A stretch of DNA of 64,000 nt from Isoetes taiwanensis (Eukaryota > Streptophyta > Lycopodiopsida > Isoetales > Isoetaceae): the NCBI GenBank assembly GCA_021234155.1, contig JAJEKV010000017.1:16156946-16220945 (forward strand), read 5' to 3'. Shown piece by piece: positions 1 to 59,586 of this stretch (positions are counted from its first letter, which is position 1; every line of letters begins with the position of its first letter). The notes beneath the pieces were generated by a model. That model was not told the DNA's origin, did no database searches, and saw only the letters and a list, made by a program, of their open reading frames with translations. A program made the position numbers and the translations under genes.

Positions 1-213
1 TATGTATTGCTGAATTCCACTGGTTGCTGGTGTAGCAGGAGCAACTAGATTGTATTTGCTTACTATTTCTTGCAGAAAACCTTTGGTTGGTTGTGTTGTT
101 GATTCGTTCTTGGCCTTGCACAGAGCATTCAGATTAATGCCTGCATCTTTGATCAGCTTTACCATCTGTGATCTTGTCATGGTCCGGTTGCCCAAACCCT
201 CTGGTCGTGTCAT
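1..213 (-). CDS. Partial ORF inside the left direct repeat, unknown function
   Basis: The minus strand is open from a Met at 213 (in-frame stop just upstream, near 277) to the window edge, at least 71 codons. It reads like real protein: it begins MTRPEGLGNRTMTRS and continues with VKLIKDAGINLN and KGFLQEIVSKYNL. The equivalent frame in the right-hand copy is broken by small indels but then continues into the element as an acidic tail (see 7545-7898). I do not recognise the family. The charged helix-turn-helix-like composition could suit a nucleic-acid-binding protein, but that is a guess. Confidence 0.4.
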   Translation of the reverse strand, partial: MTRPEGLGNRTMTRSQMVKLIKDAGINLNALCKAKNESTTQPTKGFLQEIVSKYNLVAPATPATSGIQQYI

Positions 214-1388
214 CCCAGGCGCTCTTATCTCCGGTTCTCCCTCAGACTTGTGTAATTCTCGGCCCACCCATTTTCAAGGATTACTATTTGCAGTCTTTCT
301 AACTACATTTATCAGCACTTTCTTTACCTCTACTTATCTAGAGCTAGCTAAAAATGGCTGTCCCGAAGTCTGCATTTAGCATTTTACCTGTTTGTTGCAT
401 TGTGTTCCAAGATCCTGCCCACTTTTGTGCGACCAGCTGGTTCGCCATCATGAGAAAGTATTGCTCTGTTTGCTTACCGGTGTCCTTTTTGCATGCGTTA
501 TCTCCCAGTCCTGTGAATGATGCCCAGCGGCACCATGGTCGGATGGAGTTTTGGAGCGGCATCAGCAACCCTAAGTTTTGCCCTTCTGCTATATTCGTCT
601 CCATGGTTTTTTACTTCCTCTAATGTGGTTAGGTTTCTCCCTGGAAGCCTCCCTTAACCACTCCGTCATATATCTGCTGACTTCATATTTGTTGCTATTT
701 GCCTTAGCATTTTACATTTTGCATTATTGCAACCTTATATGCAGCTACGAAACCACTTTTCTTGTCCATCAAACCCAGATGTTATTTTTCCTACTTGTTA
801 TGTCCCTCCTTTTAATTTACATTTCTATTTTTTATTCCTTCCATTAATATTCGAACCCCATCGCTCAGTATTATTGGCTCATTTACATGGTGCAAACCAA
901 ATGCTTACCTGTTTTTCACCGTCAATGCTTTTGTATCTGTCGTTTTGCATCGATCTTTCTTTCACTTCTCGTTGCATGCCTTTGGCGCCCCCTTTTTTTG
1001 TGATGTTCATATTCTCTCTTTCATTTTAATATTTCTACCCAGCAGATCTATAGAGTATTTGACACAATCCACTAAAGCCACTAGTTCACGTGTCTCCATA
1101 TCATTATTAATTAGTCCATTTTCTCCCTTGGGTTTCCCAAGCCCCTTTCTACAGTTTAACGGTCCATAATCCCTGGGATTGAGACCCAATTTTTTGCTTT
1201 GGGCCATTGATCCTGGTTTTTTGCCCAGCTCCCTATATCTTCATGTATCATTCATTAGTATTTCTTGCTTGTGGTTTTTCTCCATCACCCTGTTGTTTTT
1301 GCCTTGCGACTCCATGTGGTCCACCTTCTTGGCTCAGCTCTGCTCATTTTTGTGACCCAACACCAAACAAATCTTTTGATATATATAT
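1..1388. repeat. Left copy of the long direct repeat (3' copy relative to the ORFs)
   Basis: Matches 7683-9075 in the same orientation. From about 445 to 1375 I see essentially one difference (C/T near 1090). In the first 390 bases there are many small indels against the other copy. It is cut by the window start and ends in a (TA)n run (about 1378-1424) shared in type, but not in length, with the other copy. Confidence 0.9.
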
Positions 1389-1436
1389 ATATATATATAT
1401 ATATTTATTTATATATATATAAACTAAATCCTACCT

Positions 1437-1513
1437 CCTGCCGGAAGGCAGGGTTAAGTTCCTAGTGTAGAGTATGGGATGGGAGGGTCCCTACTCTACA
1501 TAAGGACCCTCCC
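1437..1513 (-). other. Hairpin plus interleaved stems (possible H-type pseudoknot) at the end of the RT ORF
   Basis: Three exact pairings are visible. CCTGCC(GGAA)GGCAGG at 1437-1452 is a simple hairpin. TGTAGAGTA (1466-1474) pairs with TACTCTACA (1492-1500), 9 bp. GGGAGGGTCC (1481-1490) pairs with GGACCCTCCC (1504-1513), 10 bp. The last two interleave, which is the topology of an H-type pseudoknot. They overlap the final codons of the RT ORF, and the hairpin lies in the 3' UTR. The pairings are seen directly; the function is inferred. Confidence 0.55.
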
Positions 1514-3645
1514 TGCCCACTAAAACTTAATAAATGTGTAATGTATATTCTATAGACATACCTGAGTTCCTTAAGTGCCCTGTTCACAGCCATGATGTCG
1601 TACTTTAGACCTGGGAAGCTTTCCTCCTTCAAGGTCCTGAAGACCCGTTGTTGTACATCAGTCTCTTTGAACCCATTGGTTACAAATTTCTGGATAAGAA
1701 TCTGCAGGTCTCTGGCTGCTTTTATTGGATTACTATTCACATATAGAATGGGCATGATCTGTGATATGATTACATTTAATGCCCAGTGGTATGGTCTGCA
1801 CGCCTCAGCTTGTACGTATTTTGTTATTTGAAGGGGCAGCATGTCCCTCTTATCATAATGATATGTCTCGTACAATCCATGGAATGGATTCATTACCTCA
1901 ATAGACAAATTTAGAAAGTTTACTCTTCTTCCCTTGAACTTGTTTCTCATGTGCTCCTCCCAGTAGACAGTTTCATCCTTTATTTCCAAGTATTCCAGAT
2001 TGTAGATTGTATGGTCAGGCTTATCATTACCTGCTAACCCAAGGTATTTCCTTATCTGAAAGCTATTTAATCCTAAGAGGTCGTCAATGTACCTAAATGT
2101 GTTGGAAAATGAAGCTGCTTCTTCATGTCTGTCTTGCCTTATTAACTTCATGATAAACTGCATCTCGAACCATGCCAGGTACAAGTTGCACCAAGCTGGA
2201 CTGCAGGCGAATCCCATTGGGATTCCTTTGATCTGCTTCCAAACATTTCCTGCCATTTGTAAAAAACAATTTCTCAGAAGCCAGTTATTCATGTTGTTGA
2301 ATGCCACTTCATCAATACACTCCCAGCAATCACTTGCTGGTGACTTTCCCCTCCATATCACCTGTGCTTCCCCATTTTTATTGACCTTATACCAAATGTT
2401 ACTTCTTTTCTTCTGCTTTGCTTGATGCTTCCACACCTGTGCTGCAATATTGGTCATTATATGGCATATACCTTCATTTCCATCCAATGGAATATTTTCA
2501 TAGCATTTAGCTATGTCTGCGACAAAAACATCAGAGATTTCTTCTGGAAGATTGCAGGTCACATCGTACACGGAATTAATTAACCATGACCCTTTAATCT
2601 TCTTTTTCCTGAACATGTTGACTGCTGCCAGTTTTGTTTCACACATATCAGGCCATACCTCTAAAAAGGAGTTCAGAATTTTGGCCACCAGACTTGCTAG
2701 CTGGGAAAATATGGAAGCATGTGCGTTAGTTATCCAACGATAACTCCTTTTGTGGGCCTTGAATATGCCTAATATGTATGGTAGGTTGCTTGTGTCAAGT
2801 TCCCACTTTCCCATGAACTCCTGTATCTGTCTACTGCAGGTTTCTTGAATTTCCTTTGGCGTATTCTCCATTTTGCAGAAGTCATTGCTATCTAGTCTAT
2901 TTCTGGCCTCTTCTCGTATATGCTTTGGGCATATAAATGCCGGATTATTTCCAGCTTTGTCTATTCCTACAATGTAGAGGTTATTGCTTAACCATTCCAT
3001 GTTTTTAATGACCTTGGTATCATTGATTTGAAACTTTTTCTCCTTCTGGTTACCTCTGATAAAATCCTTGGCTAGTCTGTATGCTTTTTTAATTATATCA
3101 CTTCTGCACTGAGCTATTTTTTGATTTGATTCACTGATCAAACTAAATCTGTGCGCTTGGAAAAATTGGTCAACCGAATCCTGTATTTCTTTCTTAAATT
3201 GCAAAAGAGTGAATGGCCTGTCGGGTATATAGTTTAGGCCAGCTCTCAACCAATTTCTAAGTGCCCTGCTGTGCACTATCCCTAAATCCATGGTTCTGAT
3301 ATGTCCTATCTCTTGGCAGACATATTTTTGTAAGGTCGGATTGTTGCATGGGCATGCCATTTCTTTTTCCTCTGCGAACACCTTCCTTGGCTTGTATAGT
3401 AGGTTTTTCAAGCTTCCCATAAACCTCCATCCATAAGTGGTATTTTCACAAATATTCTCCCCTAGTTTACCAAAATGTTGGCTCATACTTTCTTTAATTA
3501 CATTGGCAAACTTGACTTTTTCAACTGCTTTGGAGAAGAAGTTGAAATGTACATATTTTTTGTCTTGCTTGATTCTAACTGTTAATAACTTGTATCTGCC
3601 ATTTGCCATCTTAACCAATGTTCTGCTTTTGGTCTGTATAATCAC
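1462..3645 (-). CDS. Reverse transcriptase of a Penelope-like element (727 aa)
   Basis: An uninterrupted 727-codon ORF. RT motifs appear in order: RWITNAHASIFSQLASLV (about 303-320, the region before motif A), motif A VADIAKCYENIPL with the catalytic Asp near 377, motif B KGIPMGFACSPAWCNLYL (473-490), and motif C FRYIDDLLGL with the Asp pair at 521-522. A VNFLNLSIEV block follows (575-584), then a YDKRD...ISQ tail (597-629), a pattern known from Penelope-type and related RTs. The N-terminus has a small Cys cluster (CPC...C, 98-110). Met1 at 3645 or Met13 could be the start; I kept the longer. No endonuclease domain is attached, as in endonuclease-deficient Penelope relatives. The enzyme would copy the element RNA into DNA. 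The intact frame suggests recent activity. TERT-like or other RT lineages are the alternative. Confidence 0.8.
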   Translation of the reverse strand: MIIQTKSRTLVKMANGRYKLLTVRIKQDKKYVHFNFFSKAVEKVKFANVIKESMSQHFGKLGENICENTTYGWRFMGSLKNLLYKPRKVFAEEKEMACPCNNPTLQKYVCQEIGHIRTMDLGIVHSRALRNWLRAGLNYIPDRPFTLLQFKKEIQDSVDQFFQAHRFSLISESNQKIAQCRSDIIKKAYRLAKDFIRGNQKEKKFQINDTKVIKNMEWLSNNLYIVGIDKAGNNPAFICPKHIREEARNRLDSNDFCKMENTPKEIQETCSRQIQEFMGKWELDTSNLPYILGIFKAHKRSYRWITNAHASIFSQLASLVAKILNSFLEVWPDMCETKLAAVNMFRKKKIKGSWLINSVYDVTCNLPEEISDVFVADIAKCYENIPLDGNEGICHIMTNIAAQVWKHQAKQKKRSNIWYKVNKNGEAQVIWRGKSPASDCWECIDEVAFNNMNNWLLRNCFLQMAGNVWKQIKGIPMGFACSPAWCNLYLAWFEMQFIMKLIRQDRHEEAASFSNTFRYIDDLLGLNSFQIRKYLGLAGNDKPDHTIYNLEYLEIKDETVYWEEHMRNKFKGRRVNFLNLSIEVMNPFHGLYETYHYDKRDMLPLQITKYVQAEACRPYHWALNVIISQIMPILYVNSNPIKAARDLQILIQKFVTNGFKETDVQQRVFRTLKEESFPGLKYDIMAVNRALKELRYVYRIYITHLLSFSGQGGSLCRVGTLPSHTLH

Positions 3646-3970
3646 AGAAACAACACTAATAATTATTAGGCATAAGACAATTATCTACTTACCTAATATC
3701 GTAGTGTGATGCTGGCCTTCCCTTTGTCTACGACTGTATTTCTGCTGCCATTTGCTCATAGATAAGCCAGATGCTTTTCTTTTAGTCTCCCTTTCGGGTG
3801 ACTTATTCTTATAGTGAGTCTTGCTCACTTATTTTCTTTTTGGTTAGTACATGTAATCCCTTTGATGTTCTACTTTATTTTTAAATCTTTTCAATGCATT
3901 ATCAAGACTTAAACATTTTCATGTCATTCACCAGAATTAAATATTTCGAAAAAATTAACTTACTTTTGCT
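3646..3970 (-). other. Spacer between the two long ORFs of the retroelement
   Basis: This 325-base spacer contains good splice-like signals on the minus strand: GTAAGTAG near 3697 and TTATACAG near 3634. It also has an ATG AGC AAA TGG start near 3760, but none of the three phases across that putative intron stays open into the RT frame. I see no other gene. Confidence 0.35.
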
Positions 3971-5632
3971 CTAAAAGGTAAGCTTGGTCGGCAGTATTCC
4001 TGTCCTCATTCCATGTTCTCCTTTGGTTGGCTTATTCACAGACTTGTCCACATGCGTGCTTCTCTCATTGGTAGTATTCGCTGATTCAATACCACTGTTT
4101 CCAGTCACCTCAAGTGCTCTCCCTGGTTTCTTTTTGTATTTGGGTGGCATCACGATCTGTATTTCATTTTCTTCTTCTTTTTTGTTCTTTCTTTTTCTGA
4201 AATTTGTGACTCGTGTGTCTTGTCCCTCCATTTCCAATGCTTTCTCGAGGAAATCAGCAGGTCTGATTGTTCTTTCAAGTATGATTGCTGTTTTAGATCC
4301 CCCACATTCCTTTGCTAGATCCATTGAGTTGTATAAATCTGTCATCTTGATCATGATTTCCCTTACTTTGAGGTAAGCTATGAATGCTATTGCGCCTGCC
4401 CTCATCGGTTTAGTGTTCATGAGTGCATGAAATTGTAAGAACCTATACCGACATGTTTTTTCCGGCCAAAGTTTGTCCAGGCTATTAATGATATACCATA
4501 CCGCATGGTCATACCATGTGATATGATCTCTGCAGGCATTTCCTCCCTGTTTGAATCTGTCACAGCAGCATTTTAGGTATGGACAAAATGTCCTCCACAT
4601 TTTTCTAACGTAAAGATCATCCCTGCTTTCTTCCGTTTTCGCCATGTGCCCTTTCTGGCCGACATACACTCCTGAGTTTTTATCACATTTTTTGCCAAAA
4701 AATTGTGTGTTCTTGAAAGGAGGTTTATCCATGACCATCATGTTGATCCTTTTATTGAAGTTCAGGGCATCCTTATGCGCTTGTTCCACTTCTGCATCAG
4801 TGATGTTGCAAAAGGATCTTAATGTTTCCTCACTAATAGGTGCCAATATTCCTAAATTCTGTGTTTCCCAGAATCCTTGTTTGCATTGGACCCCTTGTAG
4901 TTCTGCCAGCCTGCTTGAAATAATTGGATAGTGGTAACAGTTGTATATTGTTAGCCTTTTGATGTCATAATTTTCCAGTTCTTCTTCGATATCCAATGCT
5001 TCAACACCATCCTCATTTATTGGGTCATTGCCAAGTAATTCTGTTTGCTCTTCCTCTGGGAGCATTTCAATGTCAAACAGACAGTTGGATAGTTCCACTG
5101 GTTTTATTACCTCCTTTGCTGGTTCTTTCTTTTTTCTGGCCCTATTCTTTGGTGGATATGCAATCCTCACGTTATTTGCTTTCTGTATCACTGTAACCCC
5201 TTTGATGAATCTAAGGACGTCCTTTATTTCCCTATTTTCCGCTTCAAAATGTGCCATAGGTAACTGCTCGTACATCTCATCTATTATTTTCATGCCTGTA
5301 ACTTGGTCCACATCATTCTTGTTCAGCTTAGAAACCAATCTGCACATGTTGTTGAAGCCCAAAAATGTAATGACTGAAGTGTCATCATCCTCCATAAATG
5401 TTTCCCTCTTGATAAGATATTTGTGCAATTCTGGTTTCACCATGCATCCAAGCATAACCTGGACAGCTTTGTTGGGTGGTATAATTCTTGTTGCTCCATA
5501 TCCCATTTTTATTAAATCAGGATACCAAGATGTTCCGTTGCTGAATTTGATTGTTGTATCAACTGTGTATTGTCCCGTATGTTCCCCATCTTCCAATACT
5601 TGTACACCTTCTGTGTCCACAGGATTACCCAT
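3971..5632 (-). CDS. ORF1 of the retroelement, 553 aa, function unknown
   Basis: A long intact ORF on the same strand as the RT and 325 bases upstream of it. I recognise no family. Visible features: basic patches RARKKKE (about 164-170) and RKRKNKK (479-485) that could be nuclear-localisation signals; an acidic stretch (about 190-222); a Cys/His-rich patch CPYLKCCCDRF...CRDH (350-370) that might bind zinc; and a low-complexity Ser/Thr/Asn tail. A gag-like nucleic-acid-binding role would fit its place before the RT but is inference. The open frame continues upstream of Met1 to about 5669, where TTTTATAG precedes GAAGGTGCACC, a plausible splice acceptor, so the true protein may start in an upstream exon. 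Confidence 0.6.
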   Translation of the reverse strand: MGNPVDTEGVQVLEDGEHTGQYTVDTTIKFSNGTSWYPDLIKMGYGATRIIPPNKAVQVMLGCMVKPELHKYLIKRETFMEDDDTSVITFLGFNNMCRLVSKLNKNDVDQVTGMKIIDEMYEQLPMAHFEAENREIKDVLRFIKGVTVIQKANNVRIAYPPKNRARKKKEPAKEVIKPVELSNCLFDIEMLPEEEQTELLGNDPINEDGVEALDIEEELENYDIKRLTIYNCYHYPIISSRLAELQGVQCKQGFWETQNLGILAPISEETLRSFCNITDAEVEQAHKDALNFNKRINMMVMDKPPFKNTQFFGKKCDKNSGVYVGQKGHMAKTEESRDDLYVRKMWRTFCPYLKCCCDRFKQGGNACRDHITWYDHAVWYIINSLDKLWPEKTCRYRFLQFHALMNTKPMRAGAIAFIAYLKVREIMIKMTDLYNSMDLAKECGGSKTAIILERTIRPADFLEKALEMEGQDTRVTNFRKRKNKKEEENEIQIVMPPKYKKKPGRALEVTGNSGIESANTTNERSTHVDKSVNKPTKGEHGMRTGILPTKLTF

Positions 5633-5889
5633 TACAGGTCCTATATCATCCTCTGATGGTGCACCTTCCTATAAAATTTTAACCTGTTAGTTCTCCAATC
5701 ATGTTGTTTGACATCAATTTACCTTTGCAGACCTTTTGCCATAAACCCTGCTGCGGTTTCATTTCAAATGTTACTACATTCTAAAGCCATAATCATCTAA
5801 AACCAAGTCATGGTCAATATACTAGTTAGGAAGTCTGGTTATTGTATGCTCAGGAAGTCTAATTATTATACGTTTTGGGTCTCCAAGGC

Positions 5890-6150
5890 TTACTGTGGTT
5901 TAACCACAGTTCTGAAATCTAAGAATATGTATCCTTTCCTGTCTTGTTCCCCTGGACCAAGCCAAGCAATCCCAATCAATCTTTCAACCAATCGAGACTT
6001 ATCAGCCACCAGCCGAAGCTGGTGAAGCCTTGGAGACCCTTCATTGTTCCAAATATATGCGAAATGCTTAATTTCCGTGTTATATCCTACTGCCAATTCT
6101 TTGCAATCATTGATAACTCGTTTTAGTTTCTTATTCCTTCCTGTTGCCAT
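5890..6150 (-). CDS. Small ORF (86 aa) upstream of ORF1 in the retroelement
   Basis: Reads MATGRNKKLKRVIND... and ends TVVKPQ. The composition is protein-like (basic N-terminus, few rare residues) and it lies on the same strand as ORF1 and the RT. The last codons sit on CCACAGTAAGCC, so CA|GTAAGC could be a splice donor. Joining to the acceptor near 5669 does not give the ORF1 frame, so I treat it as a separate small ORF. An extra Met lies one codon upstream at 6153. Family unknown. Confidence 0.4.
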   Translation of the reverse strand: MATGRNKKLKRVINDCKELAVGYNTEIKHFAYIWNNEGSPRLHQLRLVADKSRLVERLIGIAWLGPGEQDRKGYIFLDFRTVVKPQ

Positions 6151-6159
6151 CACTAATTT

Positions 6160-7544
6160 TCAGTCTTCTTCCTGTCTAATATAAGTTTCACCTATGTCCA
6201 GTCTTGTTTTTTTCTTTTTACCTATTTTGCTTAATTAGCTTCTGTTTATTTTTAGTCCCTATGTTTTTTATTATTCCTTCTTTATTGACTGTTTCCCCAT
6301 TCTCATTAGCCATGCCTTTTATACAGCATTATCTATTTCCTTCAATTTCCATCCGAATTTAATTGTGCTCATCTAATCATTATTTATTTTAACATTTTTA
6401 TCCAGGCTAATGCTTTATTGCCTCTGCATATTCCTTTTAATGTGATCTACCATGGTTTTAGTCCTAAATAAACCCATTTCTGCTTTCCCTATTTTAGAAT
6501 AGGTTTCCATTTCTAGGCTTAATTTAACATTCTTATTTTATCCACTACTACTTTCATTGTCTTAACTATATAAACCAGTTTTCGTACTGCATACCTTCAA
6601 CATTTCATAATCTACATCTTTATGTGTTAATGAGAACAGATCCATCCCTTATTTTTTCGTAATGTATTAATCCTATTACTTGCCTTATCCTTGTTTATCC
6701 TGCCATGCATTACTCCTAAAAACATTTTTGATAAGTCTTCCATTCATGTGTTAGAGTTTACTTACAGTTTTTCTCCAACATTATCATGCTTTTCCAGTTG
6801 CCAGTATGTCCTTTTCATGTGGCATTCATTTATCCTTTTGAACAATAGCATGACCGAATATAAAGTCTGCTTACCAAAATGCCTTTCCAGCAAATAGAAA
6901 CTTGAAAACAGAAATATGCAAAGTCTTGTATTCATAGTGTATGAAAACTAGAGATCTGCTAGCAGCTTTCCCTTTTTGCATCACATCCACATCAATCCAA
7001 AAAACATGAGTTTATGGAGATATAGAACAGGTTACCTGCAGCCAAACAAAACCCAAGTTAGCATGATAATGGTAACTGAGTTAGGGTCGTCATGTAAGCT
7101 ATTGTTCTATATGGCTCTTCGCCCTTCACCATAACATTTATAACATAAATTATAATAACTCAAAACCACATGGGTCACTAGCTTTAGTGACCCTCTTTTA
7201 TTGCCTGTAACATCAGATTCATAATGTTCCAGTTTAAGAAATCAAAATATTAACAATCCGTCAATAATCTTTCAGAAACTCCTCTTTCCTCCTAACTGCC
7301 TATAACCTCATATCTACGATGTCCAATTCTAGGTAATCAAACATTCTTGATTAATGTCTTTAGTATCGATACTTAATTACCCCCATTAGTGTCGATGTCC
7401 TTTAGAATCGGACTACTATTTAATGCCTTCGTATCAACTAGCCTTTAGAATCATACTACTAATTCTTGCCTTTAGAAAAGATGGCTAGATAGTTGTAATG
7501 ACCACTAATAAATGCCTTTGGTATCGGATATACTATGCATGAGT
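6160..7544 (-). other. Internal untranslated region of the retroelement
   Basis: AT-rich, no convincing ORF. The part at about 7330-7560 repeats short pieces such as CCTTTAGAATC and TTAATGCCTT with irregular spacing. I see no RNA gene. If the right-hand repeat carries the promoter, this would be leader or intron sequence. Confidence 0.4.
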
Positions 7545-7898
7545 TTAGAAAACCTGATTTAATGCTATGTCCGGACTCTCCTCGACTTCTTCTTCAATGT
7601 TTTCATTCCCATCCTCCGTTCGTGAGCCTTCGCAATGCTTGTAATGTTCTCGTCCATGTTGAGCTCCACGCTTTTTGTTGCCTATGTATTGCTGAATTCC
7701 ACCGGTTGTTGGTGTAGCGGGAGCAACTAGATTGTATTTGCTTACTATTTCTTGCAGAAAAACCTTTGGTTGGTTGTGTTGTTGATTCGTTCTTGCCTTG
7801 CACGCGAGCATTGATTAATGCCTCGCATCTTTGATCAGCTTTACCATCTCGTGATCTTGTCATGGTCCGGTTGCCCAAACCCTCCGGTCGTGTGTCAT
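7545..7898 (-). pseudogene. Frameshifted ORF spanning the right direct repeat and the internal region
   Basis: This is the counterpart of the open frame at 1-213. From a Met at 7898 the frame breaks several times through small indels relative to the left copy. The later part (from about 7811) is open again and runs past the repeat edge at 7683 into unique DNA, ending in an acidic tail with NIEEEVEESPD before its stop at 7545. In the left copy the same segment is unbroken, so the breaks here are either recent mutations or sequencing errors. No known domain. Confidence 0.4.
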
Positions 7899-9075
7899 CC
7901 CAGGCGCTCTTATCTCCGGTTCTCCCTCAGACTTGTGTAATTCTCGGCCCACCCATTTTCAAGGATTACTATTTGCGCCTTTTCTAACTACATTTATCAG
8001 CACTTTCTTTACCTCTACTTATCTAGAGCTAGCTAAAAATGGCTGTCCCGGTGTCCCGTGATTTAGCATTTTACCTGTTTGTTGCATTGTGTTCCAAGAT
8101 CCTGCCCACTTTTTGTGCGACCGGTGGTTCGCCATCATGAGAAAGTATTGCTCTGTTTGCTTACCGGTGTCCTTTTTGCATGCGTTATCTCCCAGTCCTG
8201 TGAATGATGCCCAGCGGCACCATGGTCGGATGGAGTTTTGGAGCGGCATCAGCAACCCTAAGTTTTGCCCTTCTGCTATATTCGTCTCCATGGTTTTTTA
8301 CTTCCTCTAATGTGGTTAGGTTTCTCCCTGGAAGCCTCCCTTAACCACTCCGTCATATATCTGCTGACTTCATATTTGTTGCTATTTGCCTTAGCATTTT
8401 ACATTTTGCATTATTGCAACCTTATATGCAGCTACGAAACCACTTTTCTTGTCCATCAAACCCAGATGTTATTTTTCCTACTTGTTATGTCCCTCCTTTT
8501 AATTTACATTTCTATTTTTTATTCCTTCCATTAATATTCGAACCCCATCGCTCAGTATTATTGGCTCATTTACATGGTGCAAACCAAATGCTTACCTGTT
8601 TTTCACCGTCAATGCTTTTGTATCTGTCGTTTTGCATCGATCTTTCTTTCACTTCTCGTTGCATGCCTTTGGCGCCCCCTTTTTTTGTGATGTTCATATT
8701 CTCTCTTTCATTTTAATATTTCTACCCAGCAGATCTATAGAGTATTTGACACAATCCACTAAAGCCACTAGTTCATGTGTCTCCATATCATTATTAATTA
8801 GTCCATTTTCTCCCTTGGGTTTCCCAAGCCCCTTTCTACAGTTTAACGGTCCATAATCCCTGGGATTGAGACCCAATTTTTTGCTTTGGGCCATTGATCC
8901 TGGTTTTTTGCCCAGCTCCCTATATCTTCATGTATCATTCATTAGTATTTCTTGCTTGTGGTTTTTCTCCATCACCCTGTTGTTTTTGCCTTGCGACTCC
9001 ATGTGGTCCACCTTCTTGGCTCAGCTCTGCTCATTTTTGTGACCCAACACCAAACAAATCTTTTGATATATATAT
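7683..9075. repeat. Right copy of the long direct repeat (5' copy relative to the ORFs)
   Basis: Same orientation as 1-1388. Near-identity over the last 930 bases suggests recent insertion or gene conversion. The first 390 bases differ by many 1-3 base changes, often CAG/CTG in the left copy against CG-containing strings here (for example GCCTGCATC against GCCTCGCATC). Conserved short minus-strand ORFs (86-90 aa at 8019-8291 and 66 aa at 8694-8894) exist in both copies, but I cannot show that they are coding. Confidence 0.9.
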
Positions 9076-9538
9076 CTAACATATATATGTTCTTATGTTT
9101 GTCCTGTTGAATCCGGCCGTTGATCCGAGATCCTACGGCTCACGTGGCTTTGGGATGTATCGTGCGGCCCAGATGGCTTGGGAGTTTGTGTATAGACTAT
9201 ATGTAAGCGATCCTACGGTCCAGGTTGATTCGATCCTGATCGTTGGTTCGAGATCCTACGGCTCACGTTGGTTTGGGACTGCACATGGCTTGGGAATTAT
9301 ATGTAATCGATCTAACGACCCAGGTTGCTCTTGATCTTGATCGTCGATCCGAGATCCTACGGCTCAGGTGGCTTGACACATATCCTACGGTCCAGATGGC
9401 TTTGGGAATTATATGTAATAGATCCTACAACTCATATTGCTTTTATCTGGTGAGATCTTGATCCTTGATCGAGTCTAAGATCCTAAGGCTCATGTTGAAT
9501 GCTCGTCCTTTAAGGAAGGCTTTTTAAAATTTTTTATG

Positions 9539-9608
9539 TTATTGGGGGGATTCGAACCTTGGGCCTCAACCCCCCAAAACCCCCACTCTAACCACTAGAC
9601 CAAGCATT
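9539..9608 (-). repeat. tRNA-derived (SINE-like) segment, copy 1
   Basis: On the minus strand an A-box-like TGGTCTAGTGGTTAG is followed about 35 bases later by a B-box GGTTCGAATCC. This matches the internal RNA polymerase III promoter layout of a tRNA. It is not a clean cloverleaf, so it is a tRNA-derived repeat and not a working tRNA gene. Confidence 0.65.
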
Positions 9609-9735
9609 AATTCTATGAAAAAATTATGTTTCAAATATACTTAAGGGTAATGTTCTAATTAAAATAAAATAGAATATAACATCCTAGATAGTTCAGGAAT
9701 GGGAATCTTCGGAAATGTAAGGGAATAGGGAAATA

Positions 9736-9807
9736 CTTCCAGAAAGTTCTAGGATGTTTTGAAAGTTTCAGAATGTTCCAGAAAGTTCTAGAAATTTCTA
9801 GAATGTA
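9736..9807. promoter_or_regulatory. Array matching the heat-shock-element consensus (copy 1)
   Basis: From 9771 to 9803 the modules GAA and TTC alternate every 5 bases seven times without a break (GAAtgTTCcaGAAagTTCta and so on). This is the inverted-pentamer consensus bound by heat-shock factors. Flanking bases continue the pattern less perfectly. Confidence 0.5.
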
Positions 9808-10388
9808 AGGGAATCGAGGAGAATTAAAGGGAATATAAGGAAATCTCATAAATTGTAAGAGAATGTAGGAAAATATTTACAAGTCTGACGGAATCGCTTA
9901 AAATCTAGTTCAATCTAAGGGGATATTCATAATATCTAAGGGAATCTAAGAAAATCTTGATGAAATCTTAGAGTTTTTTTTAAGATTTTACAAAGAGCCA
10001 CAATAGAATGTTCTAAAATGTTTCATAATAAAGGTGTATAATATAAATGTTGAAAAAAAAATGTTCTAGCTCAGGGCAAGCGTCTCAGTCTAAAAATAGA
10101 AAGTGTTTTAGAAATGTTGCACAGATCCAAAATAGATTATTTTGGAAGGTTCTAAATGCTCATGGGTAAGCACCTCAATCAAAATAGAAAATTCTAAGAG
10201 AATCTAGGGGGAATCTTCATGAATGCTAAATATAGTACATAGAATGTTGAAGAATATAGAGGAATCACAAGAGAATCTCAGTAGAATCGTTGGTTATCTA
10301 GAGCACGACAGGGCCTTGCACCATAAGAACATGCTAAAACTGGAACAATGTGCCGTAAGACGCATTAAATTTCTTGTATATATATATC

Positions 10389-11405
10389 ATAACATATATA
10401 TGTTCTTATGTTTGTCCTCCTGAATCCGGCCGTTGATTCGAGATCCTACGGCTCATGTGGCTTTGGGACGTATCGCTTGGGAGTTCGTGACCGATTATAT
10501 GTAAGCGATCCTACGGTCCAGGTTGATCTGATCCTGACCGTTGGTCCGAGATCCTACGGCTCACGTTGCTTTAGATATATCCTACATGATCCTACGGTCC
10601 AGATTGATCATAATCCTTGGTCCAAGATCCTACGGCTCACATTGCATGCTCGGGCCTTGGTATTTTCAACAAATCTTAAGGAAAGGCTTTTAAAAATTTT
10701 TATGTTATTGGAGGGATTCGAACCCTGGTTATTAATCCCCCAGCCTCCCATTCTAACCACTAGACCAGGCATTAATTCTATGAACAATTTATGTTTCAAA
10801 TATACTTTAAAGGTAATATTCTAATTAAGATAAAATGGAATATAACATTCCAGATAATTCAAGAAAGTTCTAGAAAGTTCTGGAGGCTCTAGAAAGTTCT
10901 AAAATCTTCTAGAATGTTCTAGAAAGTTCTAGAATTCTAAAATGTTTTGGAATATAAGAGAATCTAGGGGAAATCTAAGAGAATCCTTCCAAATGTAAGG
11001 GAATCTTTGGGAATGTAAGGAAATAGGGAAATACTTCCAGAAAGTTCTGGGATGTTTTGAAAGTTTCAGAATGTTCCAGAAAGTTCTAGAATGTTTTAGA
11101 AATTTGTAAAATGTAAGGGAATCTAGGAGAATTAAAGGGAATCTAATATAAGAGAATCTAGGAAGATATTTACAAGTCTAAAGGAATCTCTTAAAATCTA
11201 GTTGAATCTAGGGGAATCTTCATAATATCTAAGGGAATCTAAAAAGATCTTGATGAAATCTTAGAGTTTTTTTAACAATGGAATGTTCTAAAATGTTTCA
11301 TAATAAAGGTATACAATATAAATCTTGGAAAAAAAATTTTCTAGATGCTTAGGGTAAGCGCCCCAGTCTAAAAATAGAGTGTTTTAGACATGTTGCACAG
11401 ATCCA
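10389..11405 (-). repeat. Composite repeat copy 2, truncated
   Basis: Same order of parts as copy 1. Its tRNA-like segment lies at 10704-10775 (A-box TGGTCTAGTGGTTAG and B-box GGTTCGAATCC on the minus strand), and HSE-like arrays at 10861-10935 and 11036-11100. It stops near GTTGCACAGATCCAA (about 11391-11405), where copy 1 continues. The inverted-repeat element at 11420 begins just after, so the copy was interrupted by that insertion and its remainder is missing. Confidence 0.75.
10704..10775 (-). repeat. tRNA-derived (SINE-like) segment, copy 2
   Basis: Minus-strand A-box TGGTCTAGTGGTTAG and B-box GGTTCGAATCC with the same spacing as in copy 1. The T-arm part AGGGTTCGAATCCCT pairs well here. 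Confidence 0.65.
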
Positions 11406-11419
11406 AGCAACACATAACT

Positions 11420-11864
11420 ACCAACACATAACTACCATTGACATTAATAAATATAACCATTGGATCCAACACATTTAAATTAAAATCCCCCTTAAACCCC
11501 CTTTGGTTTGGGTGCATATTCACACGGGGGGTGACTCCGGGCATCGAGAGCTGTCGGATTGGCATATTCGCCCCTTATTCCTTAATCTACACCGTACGTA
11601 AAGTTCCTCATTTGTGGGGTATGCAAGTACAAGATTTGCTATACTGTATAATAAGATTCGCAAAATACTATAAGATTTCAACCGGAATACTATATGGTGT
11701 TGATTTCGTACGTGCAAAATACAATTATGAGGGCTCTCGCTGCCCTACGTCACCCCCCGTGTGAATATGCACCCAAACCAAAGGGGGTTTAAGGGGGATT
11801 TTAATTTAAATGTGTTGGATCCAATGGTTATATTTATTAATGTCAATGGTAGTTATGTGTTGGT
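11420..11864. mobile_element. MITE-like or foldback element with 116-bp perfect terminal inverted repeats
   Basis: 11420-11535 is the exact reverse complement of 11749-11864 over 116 bp, as far as I can align by eye. Pairing continues imperfectly for about 20 more bases inward. The loop is about 200 bp and has no coding sign. The ends read ACCAACACATAACTACC. I could not find a clean target-site duplication; CACATAACTAC is present twice at the left end, which confuses the boundary. It sits where composite repeat copy 2 is broken. ORFs read through this region are palindrome artefacts. Confidence 0.85.
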
Positions 11865-11874
11865 TATTATACTA

Positions 11875-11911
11875 AAAAAATTTTTTGGCCCTTCGGGCCA
11901 TTAAAAAAAAA
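11875..11911. other. Strong hairpin flanked by A/T runs
   Basis: TTTTTTGGCCC-TTC-GGGCC followed by ATT and an A run gives a stem of about 11 bp. It resembles an intrinsic terminator or a Helitron 3' hairpin, but no CTRR follows, so I leave it unassigned. It lies just outside the inverted-repeat element. Confidence 0.45.
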
Positions 11912-13870
11912 ACAGACGTGAGAATATAAAAGACATTTAAAACATGAAGATAGTGTAGGGTTGCATCTTGAACCTTGGAATCCAAATATGCACTAAGGAT
12001 TTAATATTTGAAGTATACTAGATAACCATCGTTTAAATATTTAGAACTTGAACAATTATATTGAACTTGGGAATTCACATGTGATTGTGTCGAATGGAAT
12101 GGAATGTGTGATGTTAACGTTAATAAAGCAAATCGTCTAATAAAGCAATTGTCTGTACAATAGCCTCTCCAACTTGTTTCCTCATCAAAAAAAGGAAAAA
12201 ATGTGCCAATGGCAATTGTTCCCTGCATCAGTCAAATGCACATTCAATTTGATAATTAACTAATACTCAAGTCCAATGTGACAAAAATTTGCAAACATTT
12301 CGTCTAACCTTAAATGGGGATCTCCAAAACTCCCCGCCAATGCCCGGATTCAACCCTATAATTATGGAGCACCTAAAACGACACCGTAAAACAAGTACCC
12401 AATTACAAAACCCACATGCCCAAATGACAAATACACATTTGGAACCAAGAAATCTTCGGCATAATGATTAGAAAGGTGCAAAAGAGGCTTAATCCCATGG
12501 GTCCCAGGAAAGAACGGTTGGGTATGCCAAGAACATCTCGCAAGAAGGATTCAAGCATAGGACAATATCTACTCATTTTCCACCATACTTTCCACTTCGA
12601 AGTCCACAGCTTAGATACATCCCGGAAAGGAAGAATTTATTGTTGAAATGGCCAATTGCATAAAATATGCTATTTATTGGACAAGGAAATCCCGATGTAT
12701 ACAAAGGATCGAAGTGTAGAAACGTTTGCTTCAACCAATAAATCAATTCAATGAGATTAAATCAATGAATTTTGTTTTCATTCTCGTGTAAAAGTGGACC
12801 TTACCTTGATTTCCTACGGAGTAATATGAAAGTATAGACGTGCAAACTTCTTGTGTCTTTGAGATCACAAAGTCCTCGCTTAATACGTAGGTCGGATTTG
12901 TCTCATATAGAGTCTTCATTTGCCTTGTAGATTTAGCATCTTCTTTCTTCGAAGCCAATCTGAACACCTAAAAGGCATCAAGCCATATTACACCAACCGG
13001 GTTCCCGATGGCGAGGTCCATTTGATATTATTGGACCAGCTGAAGTAATCGAACCGATAGGTGATTCAAGAACTGGCTCAATTTCTAGAAAAGGCAAACG
13101 GTATGATGTCGTCCGATGCAAACTCACAAAAAGGAGAGTGTGACCCATCCTAGTAAGCCGATTGCCCAATAATTACTCATTCCTTGTATAACTCCCCAAG
13201 AAATCAAATATCCTACCACAATTCCCCGACAAATGACCTAAAAAAACTGGCCTCGGGGAACAATTATAGATGTGAAAATCGAGATTCAAATGGGGCAAAG
13301 CCGATAGGCAAAGAAAGAACCCCAAACAGTTCCAGCTTTGAAGAAGGTCGCTTTCTTTGCAAGTATGGTCATCCATCCAAAACCACACACGAATAACCAA
13401 CAAAGACGCACTCTTACAGAAAACTCCAACTTAAATCATGTGAATGAGCACATGATAAATCCCCGCAACCGTGGAGCCCGTAAACAACAATTAGGAGTAA
13501 CGATATATCGCAAATAATATCGCACCCCAAGACCAAGGTCTTTCAAATTTTCAAGAATCCCAAGGCTCCACAGGGCGCTCATATTAAAGATTAGATCAAT
13601 CCCACATCCGAGTAACCTATGTTCTTGTTTTGAATGTAAAACCAGATAGCGGAACAAATGGCGATTAAACAACTGCTTACAGGTTTCTCGAGTATGTCGT
13701 AGATGAGAAGGCGACCCATTTGTGTATTTTGTTACATGGGCACCGGAATTGCTCCAACGAAGATCCGATCTATGATGGGTACCCAGAAAAAAAGGCATTG
13801 AAGATCACGACCTGTCAAACCCGGAATTCTCCTGTTCGCAGATCGCCGGAATGCAGATATATCGCCGGAA
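11912..13870. other. Unassigned stretch between composite repeats, with one weak exon candidate
   Basis: Moderate AT content and no recognised gene. The best candidate is a minus-strand exon at about 12805-12967: TTTTAG acceptor, an open frame starting VFRLASKKEDAKS, and AAG|GTAAGG donor. The protein piece is unknown. If the AUG6 transcript runs leftwards, this region would be intron. An ORF at 13436-13798 (minus) has no convincing coding character. Confidence 0.25.
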
Positions 13871-13880
13871 TTTATATATA

Positions 13881-13915
13881 TATCTTATCTTATCTTATCT
13901 TATCTTATCTTATCT

Positions 13916-13945
<30 letters not shown>
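13881..13945. repeat. (TATCT)n microsatellite
   Basis: About 13 copies of TATCT, directly joined to the left edge of composite repeat copy 3. The other copies have TA runs at that position. Confidence 0.9.
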
Positions 13946-15283
<1,338 letters not shown>

Positions 15284-15764
15284 ATCATATATATGTTCTT
15301 ATGTTTGTCGCGCTTATCCGACCGTCCGTTCGAGATCCTATGGCCCACGTGGCTTTGGGACATATCCTACGGCTCAGATGGCTTGGGAGATTCTATATAT
15401 ATTCTATGTAGACGATCCTACGGTCCAGGTTGATTTGATCCTGATCGTCGGTTCGAGATCCTACGGCTCACGTTGCTTGAGGACACATCCTACGGCCCAG
15501 ATGGCTTGGGAGTTTCTATGTAGACTCTATGTAATCGATCCTACGGTCCGTGTTGCTCTTGATCCCCGATCGTCGATCCGAGATCCTACTCCCACGCTGC
15601 TTGGCACATATCTTACGGTCTACATGGCTTTGGGAATTATATGTAATAGATCCTACGGTATATTGCTTTTATATGGTGAGATCTTGATCGTTGATCGAGT
15701 CTAAGATCCTAAGGCTCATGTTGAATGCTCGTCCCTTAAGGAAAGGCTTCTAAAATTTTTTATG

Positions 15765-15835
15765 TTATTGGGGGGATTCGAACCCTGGAACTCAACCCCC
15801 CAAACCGCCCACTCTAACCACTAGACCAAGCATTA
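15765..15835 (-). repeat. tRNA-derived (SINE-like) segment, copy 4
   Basis: Minus-strand A-box TGGTCTAGTGGTTAG and B-box GGTTCGAATCC, same layout as the other copies. Confidence 0.65.
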
Positions 15836-15966
15836 ATTCCATAAATAATTTATGTTTCAAATATACTTAAGGGTAACGTTGTAATTAAGATAAAATAGAA
15901 TATAACATTCTAGATAGTTCAAGAAAGTTCTAGAATGTTCTGGAGGCTCTAGAAAGTTTTAAAATC

Positions 15967-16004
15967 TTCTAGAATGTTCTAGAAAGTTCCAGAATATTCT
16001 AGAA
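15967..16004. promoter_or_regulatory. Array matching the heat-shock-element consensus (copy 4)
   Basis: Eight alternating TTC and GAA modules at exact 5-base spacing, starting TTCtaGAAtgTTCtaGAAag. A weaker run precedes it at 15915-15950. Canonical heat-shock elements need three or more such modules. Confidence 0.5.
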
Positions 16005-16794
16005 TGTTTTAAAAGATAAGAGAATCTAGGGGGAATTTAAGAGAATCCTTCCAGAAAGTCCCAAATTCTAGAACATAAGAGAATCTGGGGGGAATCTAAG
16101 AAATTTCTTCCAGAAAGTTTCAAATTGTTCTAATAAGTTCTAGAATGTAGGAGAATCTACGGGAATGTAAGTGAATCTAGGGAAATACTTCCAGAAAGTT
16201 CTAGGGTATTTTGAAAGTCTCAGAATGTTCCAGAAAGTCTTAGAATGTTCTAAAAAGTTATAGAATGTAAAGGAATCTAGGAGAATCTAACGCAATCTAA
16301 AAAAATATCATAAAATGTAAGAGAATCTAAGAAAATATTTACAATCCTAAGGGAATCTCTTAAAATCTAGGGTATCTAAGGGAATCTTCATAATATCTAA
16401 GGGAATCTAAAAACATGTTGATGAAATCTTAGAGTATCTAGGGGAATCTTTATAGAATCTCTTTGAATCTCATATAATGTAAGGGAACCTAGGGCAATCT
16501 CATAAAATCTAAAGGGATCTAAGAGAATCTAAGGGGATCTTCATAGAACCTTGAAGAATCTATGAAATCTAATAGAATCTAGAGGGAATCTTATAAAATT
16601 TAGAGGAATCTCGACGAAACCTCCAAGAGAACCTTGGTAGAATCTTAGAGAATGTATGAATTTAGAGTATTCTTAAGAGATCCTTTTAGAATGTAGGGCA
16701 CGACAAGAACTTGCACGTAGGAACATGCTAAAACTCGAACATGCACCGTAGGACGCATTAAATTTCTTGTATATATATATAACAATAAAAGTAC

Positions 16795-19913: not shown

Positions 19914-20716
19914 ATGACGGAGAACTCAACAACAAAGAAGCTGAAGATTTGTGCCTTCATGGGTTTTGTCAAAATGCTTCAAATTTCAAAGCAAGAATGT
20001 CGTCTTTAAGAAGAAAACTGAAGCACGTAGTGGATTTTCTATATGTTAATGCACCACATGTTTTGCCTTCTGTATATCAAATTGATAGTAAAGATACTGC
20101 CTCTGAGATTAAATTGCCAGAGGTTTGGAACAAGAAATTTGCATGGCTTGTAAGCTCTGAAGCATCATGTCCTAAAGGAGGTGATACCTTGTTCTTGGAA
20201 GATGGGACAGAAGATATGCACATAAGAACAACAAGGCAGCCTTTCAATCCTCTGCAATATCAGTTTCAAGATGCGGGATGGGCAATAACATGGGAGCACC
20301 TCCAAGAGATCTTTTCCAAGATGGGCCATTTTGATGGAATCTTGGGATTTTCTCAAGGGGCAGCAATTGCTATCTGTCTTTCCTATTTGAGGTGTAAAAT
20401 GCAGTCAGTTAATTTCAAATTTGTCATAATTTGTTCTGGATTTGTGCCACCTATACTTGATCAAGAGGAGTTTAAATGCTTCTCCAATCCAGAAAATGTT
20501 CTTACTTGCCCATCATTGCACATATTTTGTGGAAATGGTGGGGATGACCGGCAAATCGGCGTGGCTGAAATCCTAAAATTGGCATCTTTTTTTAGTTCAG
20601 CTTCATGTGCCATTATTCAACACAATTCTGATCATATGATCCCTACTCAACCTGAGCATGTGCAACAGTATACTTATTTCTTGATGCAATTCTTACAGAC
20701 GTCTGACGAAATTTGA
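19914..20716 (+). CDS. FSH1/OVCA2-family serine hydrolase with a one-base frameshift near its start
   Basis: An alpha/beta hydrolase in a single exon. The open frame from 19949 gives about 255 residues: oxyanion LHGFCQN, nucleophile elbow GFSQGAA (Ser about 135), a likely acid in GNGGDDRQ (Asp about 199-200) and His about 229 in NSDHMIPTQPEHV. Family members are about 220-260 aa cytosolic esterases with poorly known substrates. A good start ATG at 19914 (MTENSTTKKLKI) is in another frame. One extra T in the T run at about 19948-19950 would join KLKI to LCLHGF, so this is either a one-base deletion or a homopolymer sequencing error. An AATAAA follows at 20779-20784. Whether it is a live gene or a recent retrocopy is open. 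Confidence 0.85.
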
Positions 20717-25990: not shown

Positions 25991-26640
25991 CTTGTTTCAT
26001 ATTAGCTTCTTTGCCCCGTCACTATTAAATTTAGCAGAAACCTTGTGAAATACACACAAGGATGCTAGACGTCTTAATGCAAATAGTGAACATGTTTCAT
26101 AATGGAACATGCCAAATGAAATATACATTTGGCTGAGACAACTTAGTACAAGAGAACAGAGCAGGGTGTAATAGTTTTCTGAAGAAATTCCAAGAGTGTT
26201 ATTTTTTAAAAGTATAGATACTATCATTCTTAAGCTTTTTTTATGCTCTTATCTATATTTTAGCTTTGACATGGATAACAACTGGGTGGTGGCTATGACA
26301 CCTGCAGTTCCCAGGTCTAGTTACTATTCTTATACTAACTTAAGCTCCTGGATGGTTCAAGGTACCACGCCTCTACCCATGAGCAAAAATGTAGATAATG
26401 TTTTTGAAATTTAAGGATGTGGTGAGATCCTTCTTTGAAATTTAAGGATGTGGTAGATCCTTCTTGTAAACAAACTTGCACTTATGAACTTGCCGAAGTT
26501 TAACCATGTTTGCAAACATATTTGTTGAGTCAAGTTTAATGGAAATTATTTCATGCAACTTTATGGTATGACTCGAAATGATGCACTTGTTCCATGATGA
26601 GCTTATGAATTTAAGTGGCTTTCTCTCATGTCATATGATA
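25991..26640. other. Intergenic, no gene recognised
   Basis: Contains one short duplication, TTTGAAATTTAAGGATGTGG, at about 26402 and 26435. Nothing else supported. Confidence 0.35.
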
Positions 26641-26644
26641 TGAA

Positions 26645-26817
<173 letters not shown>

Positions 26818-59343: not shown

Positions 59344-59542
59344 ATGGAAAAAAATAGAAGAGGAAGAAGAAGAAGAAGAGGAGGAAGAAGAAGAAGAAGA
59401 AGAAGAAGAAGAAGAAGAAGAAGAAGAAGAAGAAGAAGAAGAAGAAGAAGAAGAAGAAGAAGAAGAAGAAGAAGAAGAAGAAGAAGAAGAAGAAGAAGAA
59501 GAAGAAGAAGAAGAAGAAGAAGAAGAAGAAGAAGAAGAAGAA

Positions 59543-59573
<31 letters not shown>

Positions 59574-59586
59574 AAGAAGAAGAAGA
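59344..59586. repeat. (AAG)n microsatellite, about 75 units
   Basis: A near-pure AAG/GAA run with one TAA interruption at about 59543. ORFs of poly-Arg, poly-Lys or poly-Glu through it are artefacts. Confidence 0.95.

Follow-up and report, generated by a model that had tools for sequence, protein, structure and literature searches.

A probable Penelope-type retrotransposon family of Isoetes taiwanensis with no endonuclease found, TA tracts at most of its ends and a covarying RNA motif in its long direct repeats

We describe a retrotransposon family of the quillwort Isoetes taiwanensis, recognised through an element at the left end of a 64,000-nucleotide stretch of DNA (the window) near 16.2 Mb of a 22.04-Mb contig, JAJEKV010000017.1. 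Copies of the family share one plan, conserve an open reading frame (ORF1) together with a reverse transcriptase (RT, encoded by ORF2), end mostly at TA tracts, form tandem units, and carry within their direct repeats (R) an RNA motif with strong covariation. With a probability of about 0.6, we explain these features by a Penelope-type family that lacks an endonuclease (EN), forms tandems and repeats resembling long terminal repeats (pseudo-LTRs), has the unit R-ORF1-ORF2-(TA)n, and moves by the mechanism proposed in the Discussion, in which head-to-tail deposition of copies places a further R after the unit. Papers are cited by PMC number.

Results

The window element lies on the minus strand. 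In its own orientation it consists of R (9088-5925), the main ORF1 exon (5668-3971), ORF2 (to 1462), a (TA)n tract (1421-1379) and a second R reaching to -1757, beyond the left edge of the window, where (TA)34 follows. A first-pass annotation had put the direct repeats at about 930 bp, which under-measured them. Aligned with itself, the contig shows a pair of 3.16-kb repeats at contig positions 16155188-16158347 and 16162870-16166033 (window -1757..1402 and 5925-9088) that are 98.05% identical over 3178 columns, with 1.76 kb of the partner past the window's left edge; within the window alone, 1-1402 and 7683-9088 agree at 97.9%. The likeness to Penelope pseudo-LTRs seen in the first pass was borne out, as R pairs are present in five elements and show the pseudo-LTR and head-to-tail or partial tandem arrangement of Penelope-like elements (PLEs). 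Identity between the R copies of one element (98.05% and 97.3%) exceeds that between the R copies of the window element and of a second element, C974 (92.9-93.6%), and the R end is common to both elements.

Differences between paired R copies cluster near CG. The window pair (contig 16155188-16158347 against window 5925-9088) has 25 of its 38 events there, compared with 15% of positions; the corresponding values are 31/47 against 15% in C974, 65/111 against 23% in C457, 5/11 against 12% in C1067, and 4/21 against 10% in an element neighbouring the window. Because of this clustering, base-calling error or methylation decay would look the same as real frame loss. The genome was assembled from nanopore reads (PMC8566536).

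Paired direct repeats of 2.4-3.2 kb, more alike within than between elements for two copies, could also belong to an LTR retrotransposon with an unusual RT. We regard this as highly improbable: neither ORF1 nor ORF2 matched a protease, RNase H or integrase in Pfam at E≤10, motif-bearing units stand in head-to-tail arrays, and the ends lie at TA tracts.

Genome searches covered 1,658,258,908 bases in 1110 contigs. ORF2 yielded at least 61 scored matches among 4785 first-look candidates (51-100% identity) and ORF1 at least 78 among 3328 (46-100%), while a 1.39-kb piece of R returned six full-length matches at 90-100%, which form three pairs, those of the window, C974 and C457. The C974 copy matches the window element at 93.8% over 11.0 kb, and the C457 copy is broken. 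C1067 has the same plan with an ORF1 71% and an ORF2 61% identical to those of the window; its R copies measure 2.37 kb and are 99.1% alike, and the element is flanked by (TA)71 and (TA)39. The neighbour, a distinct element on the opposite strand to the left of the window (contig 16145297-16155133), again has this plan with 37% (ORF1) and 47% (ORF2) identity, and shares the (TA)34 tract with the window element. These related copies with ORF1 and RT confirm a real retroelement family. No relatives of ORF2 appeared in the viral_contigs, phages and plasmids collections, and none of ORF1 in viral_contigs, the sole collection searched for it.

Matches to ORF1 and ORF2 occurred together in all eight stretches that we fetched, the window's own included. 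A scored ORF1 match lay 227-906 nt upstream on the same strand for 40 of the 61 listed ORF2 matches; three of the other 21 were fetched (C457, C202 and C1061) and show a broken, more divergent or partial ORF1. This co-occurrence supports the earlier assignment of ORF1 to the element of the RT. Between the window and C974, dN/dS is 0.10 for ORF1 and 0.21 for ORF2 (synonymous sites are saturated against the other relatives), values that indicate purifying selection on both. The first-pass annotation had called both ORFs intact. Both are indeed open as described, ORF1 over 553 aa (3971-5632, minus strand) and ORF2 over 727 aa from a GTG or 715 aa from an ATG at 3609. Their starts, on the other hand, are not conserved, either for ORF1, whose window ATG the C974 copy is without, or for ORF2, and the coding exon in the window's 5' R is frame-broken, though open in its 3' R.

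The RT motifs noted in the first pass (GIPMGFACSP, FRYIDD and YDKRD) were confirmed. RVT_1 matched all nine RTs of the family alignment at E≤1 (best 3.9e-7), and CPC, a CxC motif upstream of the RT, is invariant in all nine. Compared with an animal RT sequence used as an approximate query, ORF2 is 25% identical (E=4e-32) with matching CxC, DKA.NN and YDKRD; the animal query itself found no relatives in viral_contigs. These features bring to mind the Naiad/Chlamys PLEs, which, reportedly (Craig et al. 2021), have the CxC motif, a microsatellite bias, no canonical hammerhead and an N-terminal GIY-YIG domain fused to the RT. A member of that clade that had lost its N-terminal endonuclease would be compatible with our explanation, and we rate this classification at somewhat less than even odds. 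The CxC motif is present, but the family has a separate ORF1, and no N-terminal GIY-YIG domain was found in the RT's own ORF, nor any other endonuclease.

Pfam detected no GIY-YIG domain, a feature of the endonuclease-bearing, EN(+), PLE groups, in ORF1 or ORF2. At E≤0.001 the genome contains at least 121 GIY-YIG matches, from 150 scored candidates out of 263, and among the matches listed none of these lay within 20 kb of the 61 RT or the 78 ORF1 matches. As far as these listed matches go, the family is without GIY-YIG, in keeping with the first-pass observation that no endonuclease is attached to the RT. Ten of the 121 loci (about 3.2 kb each) were read as a possible endonuclease source and rejected, as none matched the RT at E≤0.01. 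Across the genome there are recurrent GIY-YIG ORFs of about 115-156 aa (loci L033-L042); several of them adjoin ORFs that by eye resemble the ends of PIF1/Helitron helicases, and they are not next to RT.

ORF1 has no confident Pfam domain. The profile zf-C2H2_aberr matched three of seven ORF1 proteins (best E 0.0014; below the cut-off for the window's protein), and an ORF1 profile run against PDB gave two weak matches (best E 0.033) that we judged to be chance. The seven aligned proteins share an invariant GQKGH, CP..KC.CD and W.DH..W, positions that suggest a zinc-binding, nucleic-acid-binding protein. C316 and R337 are also invariant, and ORF1 is lysine-rich near its C-terminus. The resemblance of GVYVGQKGH to a YIG motif, along with the invariance of C316, GQKGH and R337, would allow ORF1 to be a very divergent endonuclease that cuts TA tracts. 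This is a distinctly doubtful alternative, as no GIY-YIG match was obtained for any of the seven proteins at E≤1, no GIY half was seen by eye, and the Cys/His positions suggest a zinc finger.

TA tracts are found at nine of the ten ends of five elements (window, neighbour, C974, C457 and C1067). The 64-kb window has just two tracts of (TA)8 or longer, one of them at the ORF2/R junction, and ORF2/R junctions carry longer TA tracts than the junctions between the 5' R and internal sequence. A repeat related to the 5' flank of the window element adjoins (TA)57 at window 15167-15280 and resembles an unfilled counterpart of that flank. In the inspected flanks of the five elements, all at internal contig positions, we saw no telomere-type repeats by eye, no search aimed at telomeric repeats having been made. 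As a separate observation, the DNA at window 9072-16435 holds repeats of a unit of about 1.3 kb, with 10-bp internal repeats of the TTCTAGAA type and a tRNA-like GATTCGAACC segment.

Comparison of R copies from diverged families brought out two conserved segments, one being a coding exon and the other a stretch of about 130 nt with no obvious coding content. For the latter, 39 pairs were predicted from 15 sequences (set A6), and 22 of these pairs show compensatory change. Covariation reached 0.555, compared with 0.184±0.016 in shuffled alignments (0 of 500 attained it) and at most 0.116 in slid versions; paired cells made up 94.8%, compared with 75.9±1.2 in shuffles, and the count of 22 doubly changed pairs was matched by one shuffle in 500. 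A set of 11 sequences gave the same covariation picture. All these values come from alignments of related sequences from which the structure itself was derived, both of which favour the structure. Given the wide margin and the double changes in all 10 pairs of helix 3, chance is unlikely. Helix 4 has a nearly invariant core (CUUACCUG with CAGGUAA), whose pairing is less tested.

Of the 25 matches at E≤0.01 that a covariance model of the motif gave on 24 sources, 21 were complete and scored strongly (89.6-134.8 bits), three were cut by locus ends and one was weak. Wherever the orientation of the element is known, the strong matches are on its sense strand. Some of the 24 sources gave no match, among them the 10-kb C1030 stretch (L029) and several short or flank pieces. 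Specificity was gauged on 88 public loci containing an 18-nt piece of the motif (8 of 8 from viral_contigs and 80 of at least 120 genome_contigs stretches); five reached E≤0.01, at best with 26.1 bits, whereas six host copies in L047 and L048 scored 70.8-104.4 bits in the same search. The weak model match, at window 26257-26388 on the plus strand (22 bits, many broken pairs), was treated as chance, though its E passes 0.01.

The 18-nt piece has 905 exact matches in the genome (477+428), the reversed pattern none (0+0), and within the first 100 of the 905 places several contigs show regular motif spacing. In one array, C126, tandem units of 3.56 kb are 96-97% alike and contain no match to ORF1 or ORF2 in the 10 kb read; in a blastn comparison of its unit with 12 R copies (E≤1e-3, sense strand), the sole stretch found in common was the motif, over 114-116 nt. 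C334 has three motifs at a spacing of 2.2-2.4 kb near ORF remnants. Because the motif is the sole part found to be shared with ORF-less units, the simplest reading of these sequences is a cis signal for mobilisation, acting in binding or initiation.

Rfam assigned no family at gathering score anywhere in the window. The hammerhead scan of the repeats that the first pass had proposed came back empty at E≤5 over window 1-14000. We considered whether the motif might instead belong to an undescribed class of self-cleaving ribozymes, replacing the PLE hammerhead and yielding unit-length or circular RNA from tandem transcripts. Such a role would suit its conserved core, its usual occurrence once per R and once per 3.56-kb unit and its being the sole stretch found common to C126 units and R copies; moreover, hammerheads are present in metazoan retrozymes as well as in PLEs (PMC7229834), and Rfam listed none here. 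No known ribozyme core was recognised, though, and a distance of about 0.85-1.1 kb separates the motif from the 3' insertion end, so that cleavage there would not define the ends. We consider a ribozyme unlikely.

The motif lies in what is probably an intron of ORF1. The open ORF1 frame begins with EGA straight after a stop codon in four elements (window, C974, C1067 and C1067b), and the window's stop, TAG, can act as a splice acceptor. Upstream, a coding exon in R ends in LNQ/GT with matching phase in six of 12 R copies (w3, w5, c974_3, c457_3 and both neighbour copies); in a separate comparison, the corresponding place reads PNQV in C1067 and LNQV in C202. From LNQ/GT and AG/GAAGG in matching phase, we infer that a coding exon within R is probably spliced to ORF1; Pfam gave no confident domain for this exon. 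Fusion of ORF1 to ORF2 by splicing was rejected because the window's upstream candidate exon does not share the phase of ORF2.

These observations bear on a further alternative, in which the motif controls splicing by hiding a 3' splice site (a branch-like CUAAC, a U-rich tract and UGCAG/GUAACC) through pairing with CUUACCUG, thereby keeping part of the RNA unspliced. The letters of the branch-like and acceptor-like sites vary little or not at all, and the motif's place in the putative intron would suit this role. Yet the C126 units retain the motif where the 10 kb read show no ORF1 match, and the acceptor of the deduced ORF1 junction is a different one, 1.3 kb downstream; we find splice control quite improbable.

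Discussion

In the mechanism that we propose for this EN-lacking, Penelope-type family, a particle of the ORF2 and ORF1 proteins would bind the conserved hairpin in R of the unspliced RNA. A (TA)n microsatellite with a break or nick would then prime reverse transcription by pairing with a UA tract where R meets internal sequence in the RNA, and jumps of template from one UA tract to another would give rise to R-only and R+ORF units in tandem. ORF1 would be read from spliced RNA, in which the R exon is joined to that of ORF1, so that intron-containing genomic RNA would keep the 5' R hairpin. Priming by UA tracts on (TA)n ends, with jumps, is suggested by analogy with two known systems. In PAc, reverse transcription begins at an internal site of the RNA close to the pseudo-LTR/ORF junction, which becomes linked to AT-rich DNA (PMC11167929); in Terminons, short reverse-complement telomeric repeats mediate attachment to telomeres (PMC6431247).

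Several observations weigh against this reading. The PAc start site is not homologous to the cut DNA (PMC11167929), so the base-pairing step is our own extension and PAc argues against its generality. With regard to the TA tracts, the 3' end of C457 does not lie at one but continues for 0.74 kb into a partial copy of ORF1; the short 5' tracts of the window element, C974 and C457 may be the elements' own; and the 5' R/internal junction reads TATATAT in C1067 and the neighbour, but merely ATACATAT in the window, C974 and C457. Moreover, of 21 tracts of (TA)8 or longer in the fetched stretches, 10 are at element boundaries or ORF2/R junctions and 11 elsewhere, which makes such tracts common in these stretches. 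The repeats of C457 are less alike within the element (93.6%) than they are to those of the window (94.5-95.0%), and the C1030 stretch has neither repeats nor motif. LNQ/GT was not found in the other six of the 12 R copies (c974_5, c457_5, c1067_5, c1067_3, c1039_5 and c202_5), and as the 3' R also holds the motif, selectivity by the intron would need transcripts that end before it. Assignment to the PLEs draws on anatomy and on the comparison with the approximate animal RT sequence rather than on phylogeny, and the RT profile matched no PDB chain at E≤5. Finally, an endonuclease may have escaped detection, nucleases other than GIY-YIG having been sought solely through family profiles on the ORFs.

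In Athena-type, endonuclease-lacking or EN(-), elements the RT is the second ORF, and the Isoetes elements agree with them in having two ORFs, no endonuclease found and the RT second. The first-pass annotation took this arrangement to be unusual among PLEs, yet it is already in print (PMC9033089, PMC6431247). EN(-) PLEs (Athena, Coprina and those of Selaginella and conifers, across rotifers, fungi, protists and plants) share with our family two ORFs, an RT without GIY-YIG and tandem copies (PMC6431247, PMC9033089, PMC3846280), and a table in PMC9033089 lists them for Selaginella moellendorffii, Pinus taeda and Picea abies. In this respect the element is not new, and the RNA motif has the most claim to novelty. 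The EN(-) PLEs are described as largely attached at chromosome ends, whereas the Isoetes elements end at (TA)n at internal positions, here at 16.2 Mb of a 22.0-Mb contig. Unlike them, too, the family has repeats of 2.4-3.2 kb that hold a structured RNA and a coding exon, with no hammerhead listed. Canonical EN(+) PLEs (Penelope, Poseidon and PAc of Anolis) likewise have pseudo-LTRs, tandem or partial tandem copies and AT-rich targets; PAc carries a GIY-YIG domain and a hammerhead (PMC11167929), neither of which was found in the Isoetes family. Retrozymes (plant LTR and metazoan tandem hammerhead types) resemble our ORF-less arrays as non-autonomous units with a small structured RNA of a type common to a candidate helper, but the Isoetes RNA is not a hammerhead and its unit measures 3.56 kb, compared with 150-450 bp in metazoans (PMC7229834).

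More tentatively, the R motif could represent a new functional RNA class, a ribozyme or an RT-programming signal, that makes RNA mobile by itself. One EN-free RT would then serve autonomous and ORF-less units alike and find its targets by UA/(TA)n pairing, as a microsatellite counterpart of the telomere-attached PLEs. With a defined 129-nt RNA, strong covariation, hundreds of copies and ORF-less units, recognition, cleavage and TA-repeat priming become directly testable in vitro. The family bears on how EN-free PLEs choose their sites, how they keep introns and which RNA features their RT recognises. We found no published description of Isoetes PLEs or of a comparable conserved RNA, which is weak evidence of absence because several key PLE papers lay outside the literature covered; the word "Penelope" occurs 0 times in the main texts of two Isoetes genome papers. 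The family may account for unassigned repeats in quillwort genomes.

Other features of the window

Table 1. Parts of the retroelement, in window positions
Feature	Positions	Strand	Basis or remark
3' direct repeat R, first 1.4 kb in window, continues to -1757	1..1402	-	self-alignment
(TA)n tract at ORF2/R junction	1379..1421	.	sequence
ORF2, RT with CPC motif, DKAGNNP, GIPMGF, YIDD, YDKRD	1462..3645	-	RVT_1 E=6.9e-5, below Pfam cut-off
Possible 59-nt intron directly 5' of conserved ORF2 part (AG/GTAAGT ... TATACAG)	3634..3692	-	deduced from sequence
ORF1 main exon, 565 codons open from acceptor (553-aa ORF starts at 5632)	3971..5668	-	sequence
Putative intron of about 1.9 kb holding the RNA motif; donor CAG/GT, acceptor TAG/GAAGG	5669..7553	-	deduced from sequence
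5' direct repeat R, pseudo-LTR-like, 3.16 kb	5925..9088	-	contig self-alignment; R end shared with C974 copy
Conserved structured RNA motif (covariance model R1) in 5' R, 129 nt	7010..7138	-	129.3 bits; second copy in 3' R outside window
Putative initial coding exon of ORF1 within 5' R, with LNQ preceding the GT; upstream limit approximate	7554..7958	-	frame broken here, open in 3' R
Short TA tract at element 5' end, beside a repeat whose relative borders (TA)57	9066..9088	.	sequence

Elsewhere in the window, an ORF with an FSH1 serine hydrolase domain (E=1.4e-34) occupies 19949-20716 on the plus strand. Two long microsatellites are also present, (AC)83 at 26648-26813 with 100% matches and (AGA)77 at 59356-59586 with 97% matches.

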